Source: Bacillus multifaciens
Lineage (GTDB): Bacteria; Bacillota; Bacilli; Bacillales; Bacillaceae_G
Direction of reading: 5' to 3'
NCBI RefSeq assembly: GCF_030756675.1
Contig: NZ_JAVBXD010000030.1
Location: 1-62,954, forward strand
DNA length: 62,954 nucleotides
Part shown: positions 15,263-57,148 of the stretch, piece after piece
Position numbering within the stretch: the first letter of the stretch is position 1
Layout of the letters: every line of letters begins with the position of its first letter
Made by a program: the position numbers and the translations under genes
Notes under the pieces: model-generated
Database searches by the model: none
The model's input: only the letters and a program-made list of their open reading frames with translations
What the model was told of the DNA's origin: nothing

Positions 15263-15463
15263 TATATAAATACAAATTGAAAAACCGACATAAAAGCCCT
15301 TTCTTTTAGGTGGGCAAGAGCATCTGGCCGTGCATAGAAGCGGTCAGTTCCTTTTCCTACCACATGCGAAGTTTAAAACAAAGGGAGAAAGCAAGTGCAG
15401 GTCATGTTGTGTTCTGTATAGCAGTGACTTATATGTTGAAAAATCAAAATGGCTTTATATATA
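15263..15463 (+). repeat. bcr-type interspersed repeat, copy 1
   Basis: A ~200-bp element bounded by TATATAAATnCAA at the left and a TTTATATATA end at the right, with ACCGACATAAAA near the left end, TATGTTGAAAAATCA near the right end, and the core AGAAGCGGTCAG. Four more copies lie in this window. The ends are imperfect inverted repeats. It separates spoVD from murE; short ORFs inside it are not real genes. Confidence 0.8.
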
Positions 15464-26967: not shown

Positions 26968-27174
26968 TTTATATATAAAACCATTTTAAATTTTCGACAT
27001 ATAGCTTGCTGCGATGCAGAAAAAAGGAAGCTGCACTTGCTTGCTATCTCTGGTTTTCACTGCGCATGTGGCCGAAAAAGGCCCTGACCGCTTCTATGCA
27101 CGGACAGATTCTCTCGCCCACCTAAAAAGAATGGTTTTATGTCGGTTTTTTAATTTGGATTTATATAGATATAA
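26968..27174 (-). repeat. bcr-type interspersed repeat, copy 2 (inverted)
   Basis: The minus strand carries the same element as at 15.3 kb, with ACCGACATAAAA, AGAAGCGGTCAG and a TTTATATATA end, in the opposite orientation. It lies just upstream of the spoIIG promoter. The ORF across it is a by-product of the repeat. Confidence 0.8.
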
Positions 27175-29900: not shown

Positions 29901-29938
29901 GGTCTCATCATTTATGATGAGACCTTTTATATATATAT
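29899..29938 (+). terminator. Terminator after sigG
   Basis: AAGGTCTCATCAT and ATGATGAGACCTT pair around TT and lead into TTTATATATA. The end abuts the next bcr-type repeat. Confidence 0.9.
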
Positions 29939-30127
29939 AAATCCAAGTTAAAAAAACGACATAAAAACCCTTTTCTTTTTAGGTGGGCGAGAGCATCCGG
30001 CCATGCGTTGAAGCGGTCAGTTCCTTTTTCTTCCACATGCAAAGTTCAAACAAAGGGAGAAAGAGAGTGCAGAATCTATTTTTCTTCATAGTAATGTATA
30101 TGTTGAAAGATCAAAATGAGTTTATAC
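29930..30127 (+). repeat. bcr-type interspersed repeat, copy 3
   Basis: Same order of motifs as the other copies: TATATAAATCCAAG, ACGACATAAAA, GAAGCGGTCAG and TATGTTGAAAGATCAAAATG near the right end. It fills most of the gap between sigG and ylmC. B. subtilis has ylmA in this interval; none is seen here. Confidence 0.78.
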
Positions 30128-52717: not shown

Positions 52718-52910
52718 TTATATATAAATCCAAATAAAAAAGCGACATAAAACCATTCTTTTTCAGTAGGCGAGTACATCTAGCCGTGTATAGAAGCGGT
52801 CAGGGCCTTTTTCTACCACATGCGAAGTTCAAACAAAAGGAGAAAGTGAGTGCATGCTCTTCTACATAGTAGCAATCTATATGTCGAAAAATTAAAATAG
52901 ATTCATATAG
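52718..52910 (+). repeat. bcr-type interspersed repeat, copy 4
   Basis: TATATAAATCCAAAT at the left, then GCGACATAAAACC, AGAAGCGGTCAG, TATGTCGAAAAATTAAAA and a degenerate TTCATATAG end. Same order and spacing as the other four copies. It lies between the HAD gene and the small membrane protein gene. Confidence 0.78.
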
Positions 52911-54494: not shown

Positions 54495-54546
54495 AAAATA
54501 TTGCTTTTTCACCTTATTTATTATAGGATAATCATTAAGTAAATAA

Positions 54547-54796
54547 GATAAGCGATGAATGGAATAAAGTAGTGTATATTCTCCCTGTTAAAGAGAGCTG
54601 ACGGTTGGTGCAAGTCAGTACATAGAATAACATGAATTACAATCCAGGAGCATCTTCTTCGAGCGAATTGTAAGGGGAAGACGGTGAAGAGCCGTTATAG
54701 AGAATGAAGAGATTGACATATAAAGTTTGTCAATAATTAGGGTGGTACCGCGAATAAAATCGTCCCTACTGATTAGTTTCAGTAGGGATTTTTTGT
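54547..54796 (+). promoter_or_regulatory. Tyrosine T-box leader, copy 1 of 3
   Basis: Stem I features (AGAGAGCTGACGG and GGTTGGTGCAAG), the specifier candidate TAC at 54638-54640 (after GAAT, before A), the T-box AGGGTGGTACCGCG at 54739-54752 and a terminator (TCCCTACTGA with TCAGTAGGGA and a T run) at 54762-54796. TGGT in the T-box suits tRNA with discriminator A, as for tRNA-Tyr. Confidence 0.92.
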
Positions 54797-54819
54797 ATTT
54801 TCATAACAACTAAATAATA

Positions 54820-55069
54820 GATAAGCGAGGAATGGAATAAAGTAGTGTATGTTCTCCCTGTTAAAGAGAGCTGACGGTTGGTGCAAGTCAGTGCAAAGAA
54901 CAGCATGAATTACAGTCCAGGAGCATCTTCTTCGAACGAATTGTAAGGGGAAGACGGTGAAGAGCCGTTATAGAGAATGAAGAGATTGACATATAAAGTT
55001 TGTCAATAATTAGGGTGGTACCGCGAATAAAGTCGTCCCTACTGATTAATTTCAGTAGGGATTTTTTGT
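54820..55069 (+). promoter_or_regulatory. Tyrosine T-box leader, copy 2 of 3
   Basis: A near-identical copy exactly 273 bases after the first: specifier TAC at 54911-54913, T-box at 55012-55025 and its own terminator. A few substitutions are visible (for example AGCGAGG for AGCGATG and ACAGTCC for ACAATCC). Confidence 0.92.
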
Positions 55070-55092
55070 ATTTTCATAACAACTAAATAATA

Positions 55093-55342
55093 GATAAGCG
55101 ATGAATGGAATAAAGTAGTGTATGTTCTCCCTGTTAAAGAGAGCTGACGGTTGGTGCAAGTCAGTACAAAGAACAGCATGAATTACAATCCAGGAGCATC
55201 TTCTTCGAGCGAATTGTAAGGGGAAGACGGTAAAGAGCCGTTATAGAGAATGAAGAGATTGACATATAAAGTTTGTCAATAATTAGGGTGGTACCGCGAA
55301 TGAAATCGTCCCTACTGATTAATTTCAGTAGGGATTTTTTTA
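55093..55342 (+). promoter_or_regulatory. Tyrosine T-box leader, copy 3 of 3
   Basis: A third copy again 273 bases on: specifier TAC at 55184-55186, T-box at 55285-55298, terminator with T run ending about 55342. It is the last of the array before the permease leader. Confidence 0.92.
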
Positions 55343-55437: not shown

Positions 55438-55446
55438 AAAAATGGA

Positions 55447-55650
55447 TTTATATAAATCCAAACTAAAAAACCGACATAAAACCATTTTTTCTCGGTGGGC
55501 GAGAGCAACTGGCCGTGCATAGAAGCGGTCAGTGCCTTTTTCTGCCACATGCGGGGTTTTAAAACAAAAGGAGAAAGCAAGTAGCGGTCATGTTATATTC
55601 TGCATAGCAGCGATTTATATGTCGAGAAATCAAATTGGATTTATATAGAT
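55447..55650 (+). repeat. bcr-type interspersed repeat, copy 5
   Basis: TTTATATAAATCCAAAC, ACCGACATAAAACC, AGAAGCGGTCAG, TATGTCGAGAAATCAAATTGG and a TTTATATAG end. The left border lies in the perfect palindrome GGATTTATATAAATCC. It sits in the leader between the T-box array and the permease gene. Confidence 0.8.
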
Positions 55651-55700
55651 CATATAAATTAACTCATTCGCCAAGTAAAAATAGTGATGTAAAGGAGGTG

Positions 55701-55723
55701 AATAGCCATGGAAGATGGCTATT
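55701..55723 (+). promoter_or_regulatory. Hairpin over the start of the upstream ORF
   Basis: AATAGCCAT (55701-55709) and ATGGCTATT (55715-55723) pair perfectly around GGAAG. The left arm includes the first two bases of the start codon at 55708, and the right arm covers the first Tyr codon. Confidence 0.7.
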
Positions 55724-55821
55724 ATTATGTAAGATTACTTGCAAAACCATTAAAAAAATTAGGAACAGAAAGAGGAAAAAAGAATGAAGAAGGATGGTTT
55801 AAAGAAAGAGTTATTACCTAG
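55708..55821 (+). CDS. Upstream ORF with three consecutive Tyr codons (leader peptide candidate)
   Basis: AAAGGAGGTG precedes an ATG at 55708. The 37-residue product begins MEDGYYYVRLLAKPL, with TAT TAT TAT at codons 5-7, then a basic segment; it stops at TAG 55819-55821, 38 bases inside the permease gene, in another frame. Because the permease leader carries tyrosine T-boxes, three tyrosine codons at the start of a translated leader look like a second tyrosine sensor. Ribosome stalling here could change access to the permease start at 55784. No family match is known to me. Confidence 0.55.
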   Translation: MEDGYYYVRLLAKPLKKLGTERGKKNEEGWFKERVIT

Positions 55822-57148
55822 ACATGTTCAATTTTTAGCGTTAGCGGGAATGATTGGTACGGGTATTTTTAAAGGTAGTGGAGATACTTTAGGGATTGCC
55901 GGGCCTGGCGTAATTATTTCGTACTTACTTGGTGGATTATTAATGATGATTGTTATGGTGGCTTTAGCTGAAATGGCTGTTGTTTACCCAAATCATAATG
56001 TTCAACATTTAGTTCATAAGGCTTTTGGATTTCATGTATCATTTGTAGTTGGATGGCTATACTGGATTAACTGGACGCTTGTTACAATTGTAGAAATATT
56101 AGCTGCAGGATCTTTTTTACAGTTTTGGTTTTCGAATGTACCTCTTTGGTTACTAAGTGCTGTTTGTGCGCTTTTAGTTGTGGGGATTAACAGTTTTCAG
56201 GTGAAATTTTATGGCGAAATGGAATTTTGGTTTGCTAGTATAAAAATTTTGGCACTTGTATTATTCATCCTTTTAGGTGGAGCAGTCTTATTCGGACTAA
56301 CGAATTTTGCTCCATCGACACCAACGGAACATTTACTTGGACATGGAGGATTCTTTCCAAATGGTATTAAAGGAGTTTTTAGTGCTTGTTTTATTGTAAT
56401 GTTTTCGTTCGGAGGATCTGAGTTAATAGGGGTAGCAATTTCTGAGACAAAAGACGTTGAAAAGGTTTTACCTAAAGTGATAAAGGGTGTTGTTTGGCGC
56501 GTTATCATATTTTATATCTTACCCATTACAATTATTGCGGGATTAATACCTTGGAATAAAGTTGCAGGAAATGAAAGTCCATTTATACAAGTAATGAATG
56601 CAATTGGTATTCCGGGTGTTGCACACATCATGAATTTTGTTTTATTAACTGCAGTTCTTTCAGCTGCGAATTCAGGAGTTTTTGCTACTTCCAGAACAAT
56701 GGTTGCGTTAGCTGAAAAAGGAGAAGCGCCAAAAATATTGAAAAAGACTGCGAAATCAGGTGCACCAATCATTGCAATTTCTTTGAATGGCTTATTATTA
56801 TTGATAGGGGCAGGCCTAGCATTCTTTGCTCCAGATAGTATTATCGGAACAATGATGACAATTCCAGGATTTACAATGTTATTGCTTTGGCTAAGTATTT
56901 GCTTTGCGCAACTTAAATTACGTCCTACTTATTCAACAATGCCAAATTTTAAAATGAGGTTATTTCCAACTACGACTATTATTGGAATCGTAGGATTGTG
57001 TATTATTTTCATAGGCTCAACGTTTAGTAATGGGATTTCAGTCGGAACAGTGGTTTGTTTTACAACTTTAGCAATTTTAATTGGTGTTGCTTTATTTAAA
57101 GGTCGGAATAGAAAGAAAGAAGACACACCATTAAAGCATATAAGTTAA
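55784..57148 (+). CDS. APC-family amino-acid permease, probable tyrosine/aromatic uptake
   Basis: The 454 residues form about 12 membrane helices with the amino-acid/polyamine/organocation signature ALAGMIGTGIFKGSGDTLGIA (about 16-36), the PNHNVQHLVHKAFGFHVSFV segment (about 69-88), and FSFGGSELIGVAISE (about 207-221). Such permeases bring amino acids in by proton or sodium symport. Substrate is inferred from regulation: three T-boxes with TAC specifiers point to tyrosine. The ribosome-binding site (AGAGGA) is modest and lies inside the overlapping upstream ORF. A hairpin and intergenic sequence follow. Confidence 0.85.
   Translation: MKKDGLKKELLPRHVQFLALAGMIGTGIFKGSGDTLGIAGPGVIISYLLGGLLMMIVMVALAEMAVVYPNHNVQHLVHKAFGFHVSFVVGWLYWINWTLVTIVEILAAGSFLQFWFSNVPLWLLSAVCALLVVGINSFQVKFYGEMEFWFASIKILALVLFILLGGAVLFGLTNFAPSTPTEHLLGHGGFFPNGIKGVFSACFIVMFSFGGSELIGVAISETKDVEKVLPKVIKGVVWRVIIFYILPITIIAGLIPWNKVAGNESPFIQVMNAIGIPGVAHIMNFVLLTAVLSAANSGVFATSRTMVALAEKGEAPKILKKTAKSGAPIIAISLNGLLLLIGAGLAFFAPDSIIGTMMTIPGFTMLLLWLSICFAQLKLRPTYSTMPNFKMRLFPTTTIIGIVGLCIIFIGSTFSNGISVGTVVCFTTLAILIGVALFKGRNRKKEDTPLKHIS

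Follow-up and report, generated by a model that had tools for sequence, protein, structure and literature searches.

A tyrosine-codon leader ORF between tandem tyrosine T-boxes and a permease gene in Bacillus multifaciens as a candidate second tRNA sensor

The locus described here raises the question of what a short open reading frame (ORF) with a run of tyrosine codons is doing at the start of a permease gene that already lies behind three tyrosine T-boxes. The window, i.e., the whole stretch of DNA analysed, comprises 62,954 nt of contig NZ_JAVBXD010000030.1 of Bacillus multifaciens. The ORF list and the domain search place an amino-acid permease of 454 amino acids (PF00324) at 55784..57148 on the + strand. 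The nearest NCBIfam models are those of the GABA permease and AroP, neither of which reaches its cut-off. As Tyr T-boxes precede the gene, its product presumably carries tyrosine and is a tyrosine or aromatic amino acid transporter. The search of a plasmid collection gave three matches, all below 60% identity, and a weak match to a dispersed repeat alone.

Three matches to the T-box family RF00230 were found on the + strand, at 54546..54770 (151 bits), 54819..55043 (145.4 bits) and 55092..55316 (148.4 bits), all of which exceed the gathering threshold of 93. They are part of a 273-bp unit repeated three times in tandem; the first T-box lies in unit 1, and units 2 and 3 are 96% and 92% identical to this unit. 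The specifier, read from the specifier place in the covariance-model alignment, is UAC (Tyr) in each T-box, in agreement with the tyrosine T-boxes anticipated by the original prediction. The terminator scan assigned an intrinsic-terminator-like stem to each of them (54762-54789, 55035-55062 and, on the + strand, 55308..55335).

A copy of a dispersed repeat of about 200 nt, with bounds set by hand, lies between the third T-box and the leader ORF (55439..55655, + strand) and contains an extra terminator-like stem upstream of the leader (55508-55533, terminator scan). The window holds five copies of this repeat, at 15263-15461, 26972-27170 (- strand), 29931-30126, 52721-52910 and 55439-55655; the others are 77-86% identical to the last, which sits in the 5' UTR of the permease. 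This copy stretches the gap between the T-box core and the leader start to 421 nt, vs 81-139 nt in the orthologs, and is outside the conserved mechanism.

The leader ORF itself occupies 55708..55821 on the + strand and was delimited by ORF translation and ortholog comparison. Its 37 codons encode a peptide starting with MEDGYYY (MEDGYYYVRLLAKPLKKLGTERGKKNEEGWFKERVIT), and the TAT TAT TAT run at codons 5-7 (55720..55728, +) is the proposed stall site. A Shine-Dalgarno (SD) sequence, AAAGGAGGTGA, precedes it at 55691..55701 (+), and relatives also carry an SD. According to the ORF list of the window, the 3' end of the leader overlaps the permease gene by 38 nt in a different frame (55708-55821 vs 55784-57148), and the SD-like sequence of the permease, AAAGAGGA (55769..55776, +; sequence reading, folding and ortholog alignment), is situated within the leader. 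The anatomy had been predicted from the letters of the window, namely a 37-codon ORF with a strong ribosome-binding site, three TAT codons (5-7) and an end 38 bases inside the permease in another frame, and all of it was confirmed, the ribosome-binding site being near-perfect. Between the last Tyr codon and the permease start lie 55 nt, against 46-56 nt in relatives, and the distance from leader start to permease start is 67-77 nt in the window and relatives. The window scan found no + strand promoter-like site from T-box 3 up to the start of the permease gene.

Ortholog regions were picked out by exact matches to an 18-residue peptide of the permease; at least 160 nt of upstream sequence was required, and identical regions were counted once. 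The resulting 13 distinct regions are the window, one from Ectobacillus, two gene copies from Gottfriedia and nine of the Terribacillus type (six from titled records and three from further genomes). A leader ORF with its own SD lies between the T-box terminator and the permease in all 13. One further region (L009), which shares its contig with L136 and has a short upstream part, was left out, its leader being present nonetheless; in another (L022), only 26 nt upstream are visible, and no leader shows there. The scan of the contig collection gave 12 distinct loci. The leader occurs in each of the nine with 79-85% identity, from Terribacillus, Virgibacillus sp. 7505 (as named in the record title), Ectobacillus antri and Gottfriedia endophytica, and is absent from the three more distant ones. 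In the whole-genome search, 2 of the 19 genomes from the Ectobacillus/Gottfriedia family and 10 of the 159 from the Terribacillus family proved to have an ortholog, and the search of 398 genomes of the same class at E 1e-190 added none to the two already known.

In 13/13 orthologs, the SD and the start are kept, residue 2 is acidic and position 5 is Tyr. Tyr is also found at position 7 in 12/13, the exception being the Gottfriedia copy with Phe T-boxes, and some Terribacillus-type leaders have Phe or His at position 6. The leaders begin with MEDGYYY in the window and Ectobacillus, MESDYYY and MESDYYF in Gottfriedia, and MDDDYYY, MDDDYHY or MEDGYFY in the Terribacillus type, while across the orthologs the start codon switches between ATG and GTG and the Tyr codons between TAT and TAC. 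Of the 13 leaders, 11 reach 38 nt into the permease, that of one Gottfriedia copy reaches 53 nt and that of Ectobacillus 4 nt; judged by geometry only, the leader crosses the permease SD and start in every ortholog.

The mean pairwise identity among seven lineage representatives amounts to 22% upstream, 59% in the SD, 44% in the spacer, 80% in leader codons 1-7, 32% in codons 8-13, 47% in codons 14-19, 74% from the permease SD to its start and 83% in permease codons 7-20. It falls directly past leader codon 7 and rises again at the permease SD. Pairwise differences within leader codons 2-7 number 28, 62 and 109 at codon positions 1, 2 and 3, respectively. When columns were shuffled within these codons, the observed amino-acid identity was reached in 967 of 5000 trials, which is not significant as a test of frame conservation. 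These data bear on the idea that the ORF arose by chance or is left over from a former permease start. Short ORFs are frequent in such sequence, and the permease SD and start can account for the conservation of the second half; against this, the SD, start and codons 1-7 are conserved in all 13 orthologs, and the codon matching presented below is also seen before unrelated genes. Such an origin is largely refuted already, and we consider it hardly tenable.

The start codon of the leader is enclosed in a perfect 9-bp hairpin, AATAGCCAT/ATGGCTATT, at 55701..55723 (+), with a folding energy of -11.7 kcal/mol. The hairpin had been foreseen and is real in the window; the gating role ascribed to it, by contrast, was not upheld. 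The number of pairs is 9/9 in the window and Ectobacillus (in the latter with three G-U pairs and -9.1 kcal/mol). The two Terribacillus subgroups reach 8/9 and 6-7/9, and the two Gottfriedia copies only 2/9 and 4/9. In a control in which the 7-nt flanks were swapped among the orthologs, leaving the coding part of the hairpin unchanged, 86 of 117 pairs were observed against a mean of 84.0, and 2589 of 20000 swaps reached or exceeded the observed value. As the pairing is no better than in flank swaps, the start hairpin was excluded from the mechanism, and the gating of the leader start was rejected as a general feature.

Attenuators of the erm type possess conserved hairpins that conceal the SD of the gene until the leader ribosome stalls. 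A structure-based translational attenuation, in which the leader-start hairpin or a hairpin at the permease SD switches upon a ribosome stall, would fit the perfect window hairpin, its full counterpart in Ectobacillus and the 151-nt region, which folds more stably than shuffled sequences (z -3.2). The erratic pairing just described speaks against it, as does the predicted accessibility of the permease SD, which varies between 0.25 and 0.99 across relatives with no common masking structure. We regard this explanation as very improbable.

In our opinion, the locus is probably a tandem tRNA-Tyr sensor that acts on both transcription and translation and in which stalling relieves an occlusion of the permease start. 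The three Tyr T-boxes would set whether the mRNA is completed, and the leader ORF would set whether the permease on the finished mRNA is translated. When charged Tyr-tRNA is available, ribosomes loaded at the strong leader SD would pass the Tyr codons, cover the permease SD and start and hinder initiation there. When it is scarce, a ribosome would stall at leader codons 5-7, the permease start would be open to a second ribosome, and permease synthesis would go up. Given the size of the ribosome footprint, a stall at these codons would leave the permease SD uncovered, and the distance of the last Tyr codon from the permease start would allow the second ribosome to initiate. Occlusion relieved by stalling is favoured because of the reach of the leader into the permease and the rule reported for rtpLP, the leader peptide of the at operon. 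From the sequence, we infer a translated leader, a ribosome stall within it and this direction of the effect.

The opposite sign would result from positive coupling, whereby translation of the leader delivers or recycles ribosomes to the permease start and tyrosine starvation lowers permease translation. The leader covers the permease SD in all 13 orthologs, and the Ectobacillus leader has a stop that shares 4 nt with the permease start (ATGA), a classic coupling layout. In the remaining 12 regions, however, the leader ends inside the gene and in another frame, at 38 nt in 11 of them and at 53 nt in one. A stop at 38-53 nt inside a gene is too distant for ordinary reinitiation. Moreover, the permease has its own SD, and the sign of the coupling would run counter to that of the T-boxes, so that we find this reading unlikely. 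The anatomy, the conservation, the spacing and the matching between leader codons and T-box specifier are seen directly in the sequences.

This matching is apparent in the window, where the three UAC specifiers and the three TAT codons of the leader stand for the same amino acid, and in Gottfriedia. There, two adjacent permease genes (L007, 222-4365) each have their own T-boxes and leader: copy 2 combines two Tyr T-boxes with the leader MESDYYYL, and copy 1 combines two T-boxes of specifier UUC (Phe) with MESDYYFF. In the same genome, three Tyr T-boxes and the leader MSDDYYDYLYEF, which starts M-S-D-D, precede an aromatic amino acid hydroxylase (PF00351, NF010657). B. cereus-group phenylalanine hydroxylase has been described as T-box regulated (PMC2494555). 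A positive control, the at operon of genome G142, has the leader MESDWRRT behind a T-box with specifier UGG.

A search with free residues was based on a pattern consisting of a T-box core, an SD and M-[D/E]-x-[D/G], with any residue allowed after codon 4. It was run on 397 genomes of the order holding Ectobacillus, which we take to be Bacillales. Matches occurred in 8 of the 397 genomes, a lower bound since the pattern misses known positives, and the reversed pattern gave none. The pattern ended in a non-G letter and required GGAGG 35-65 nt past the core; the positives missed were the at operon of G142, two Terribacillus-type regions (G016 and G229), Ectobacillus and Gottfriedia. All 8 matches carry the amino acid of the specifier at leader position 5. 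They comprise a Tyr leader before a permease (G394), leaders before anti-TRAP genes (MEEGWW, MDDGWW and MESDWS), leaders before TrpRS genes (MEDGWWW at L224, where the TrpRS ORF is only 102 codons as read, and LDDDWW at L225) and, behind a GAC (Asp) T-box, leaders before non-discriminating AspRS genes (EDDDDNDN and DDDDDNDN; assignment of L222 by NF003483). The Asp cases are less telling, as the pattern itself demands Asp/Glu at position 2 and Asp/Gly at position 4. A first Tyr-leader pattern, with a gap of 3-9 that was too narrow, missed known Terribacillus-type leaders. Its four matches were one Ectobacillus leader and three starts of a 199-codon ORF without T-box cores (L141-L143), which were rejected.

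Several side observations concern these loci. The AspRS leaders at L222, L223 and L331 contain codons for Asp as well as Asn, as though each of the two amino acids connected with the enzyme were sensed, and G384 has a second AspRS copy with a short, apparently decayed gene. At L225, about 65 nt past the T-box core, the LDDDWW leader runs in the TrpRS frame without a stop codon, which would yield an N-terminally extended TrpRS; this arrangement is not accounted for by occlusion. In Ectobacillus (L162, 298-430), a Trp T-box and a strong SD are followed by a two-codon ORF, M-K-stop, and a transporter-like gene; this ORF without Trp codons is an exception and maybe a degraded leader.

In the 17 leaders compared, 39 of the 68 residues at positions 5-8 are cognate to the specifier; shuffling of the specifier labels gave a mean of 14.1, and 0 of 100000 shuffles reached 39, figures that are somewhat favourable because some of the 17 (the hydroxylase leader, L028, and the AspRS-2 leader, L331) were recognised partly by their codons. 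After collapsing the set to 10 leaders, 22 of 100000 shuffles reached the observed value. The specifier of G142 was assumed in this test, its UGG reading having come later. A triple cognate run is not required, as indicated by the Phe and His variants at position 6 and by two at-operon leaders that contain one Trp codon only.

These results weigh on the proposal that the leader is a device for loading ribosomes or stabilising the mRNA without sensing any amino acid, its Tyr codons being incidental. A strong SD and an acidic N-terminus are indeed shared with leaders for other amino acids, as such a device would have it, but positions 5-8 match the T-box specifier across four amino acids, including the Tyr/Phe pair of Gottfriedia, and we judge this proposal rather improbable. 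As for the second, translational Tyr sensor of the original prediction, it is supported by the conservation of the ORF, its SD and the Tyr codons and by codons that track the specifier; the hairpin gate had to be abandoned.

How widespread the arrangement is was assessed among more distant permeases and T-boxes. An SD-led Tyr leader of this kind was present at 0 of 88 distant permease loci (89 alignment rows; aligned N-terminal identity below 80%), 18 of which have T-box cores. Several of these 18 combine Phe and Tyr T-boxes, the last one about 80 nt before the start. When the SD requirement was dropped, 45 of the 89 rows had an upstream chance ORF whose codons 4-9 contain two for Tyr or two for Phe, so codon content alone is little proof. 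Six loci (L098, L100, L102, L103, L106 and L107) encode permeases with 51-52% identity and have tandem T-boxes near the start and no leader; the specifiers are two Tyr at L100 and a Phe and Tyr pair at the other five. Two loci without T-box cores (L129 and L132) have related Phe-rich 34-codon ORFs (MDKNRFFD... and MEENGSFD...) that start 140-142 nt and stop 35-37 nt before the permease and are perhaps Phe leaders of a different kind.

The T-box survey was based on 175 matches, of which 30 became loci and 80 regions were taken, and covered 149 array-ending T-boxes. These came from 11 genomes and, in a twelfth, from a single locus, the genomes being partly picked for their matches. Cognate leaders follow 14 of the 149, to which the in-frame L225 is added, and 134 have none. 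Any SD-led small ORF is found at 35 of the 149: the 14 cognate ones and 21 others that were judged by eye only. By these counts, the leader module is a minority feature.

Taken together, it is quite likely that a minority of Bacillales T-box genes carry a reusable second module, composed of AAGGAGGTGA, M-[D/E]-x-[D/G] and specifier-cognate codons, which overlaps or abuts the gene start and is swapped as T-box specificity changes. The cases are Tyr (permease, and hydroxylase with M-S-D-D), Phe (permease paralogue), Trp (anti-TRAP and TrpRS) and Asp with Asn (AspRS). If so, RNA contact during transcription and ribosome stalling during translation, combined for Tyr, Phe, Asp and the Trp synthetase, would define a class. 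The Gottfriedia permease copies would then be a natural experiment: they differ in both sensors, and Tyr and Phe starvation should switch one each. Being short and overlapping the gene, such leaders are easily overlooked in annotation; an SD and M-acidic-x-D/G right behind a T-box terminator provide a search rule for more.

Among known systems, the T-box leader (RF00230) is represented here by three full matches with Tyr specifier; a T-box alone works via its own RNA structure, and the window adds a separate leader ORF downstream. Transcription attenuation leaders of the trp, his and ilv type are short ORFs in which codons for the regulated amino acid form a run, and the window likewise has a short ORF with a cognate codon run. 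Unlike them, it has no + strand terminator-like site from the leader start to the permease start (55708-55784, terminator scan), and the leader overlaps the gene, which suggests control at translation. The His leader peptides of Firmicutes hisS and hisZ are described as replacing T-boxes (PMC2965389); they resemble the window in having cognate codons in bacilli and differ in not being combined with T-boxes.

The closest relative is the at operon of B. subtilis, whose T-box and rtpLP work was reportedly done by Chen and Yanofsky in 2003 and 2004. To our knowledge, no other mRNA has been described that senses one tRNA at two steps. The literature describes a Trp T-box and the leader peptide rtpLP before rtpA, the anti-TRAP gene (PMC2311275, PMC11255114, PMC4027176), three Trp codons in rtpLP, with full leader translation blocking that of RtpA (PMC2311275), and the control of anti-TRAP translation by uncharged tRNA-Trp (PMC11255114, PMC4027176). 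The original prediction knew of no described pairing of T-boxes with a Tyr leader peptide; for Trp, such a pairing is on record, and among the matches listed, no title or abstract opening concerned a T-box paired with a leader peptide for Tyr, Phe or Asp. As in the window, a T-box and a codon-matched leader ORF stand in series, so that one tRNA would be sensed twice, and the at-operon leaders of four genomes share the M-acidic-x-D/G start and the AAGGAGGTGA SD. The window differs in reading Tyr (or, in the paralogue, Phe) instead of Trp, in controlling a permease instead of a regulator gene, in having two or three tandem T-boxes and in the 38-nt overlap of the leader with the gene start. The Tyr version would be a variant of the at-operon type, the family with swappable codons is the novel part and, if it holds, the at operon would be a single instance of a programmable tRNA sensor with two steps and not a curiosity.
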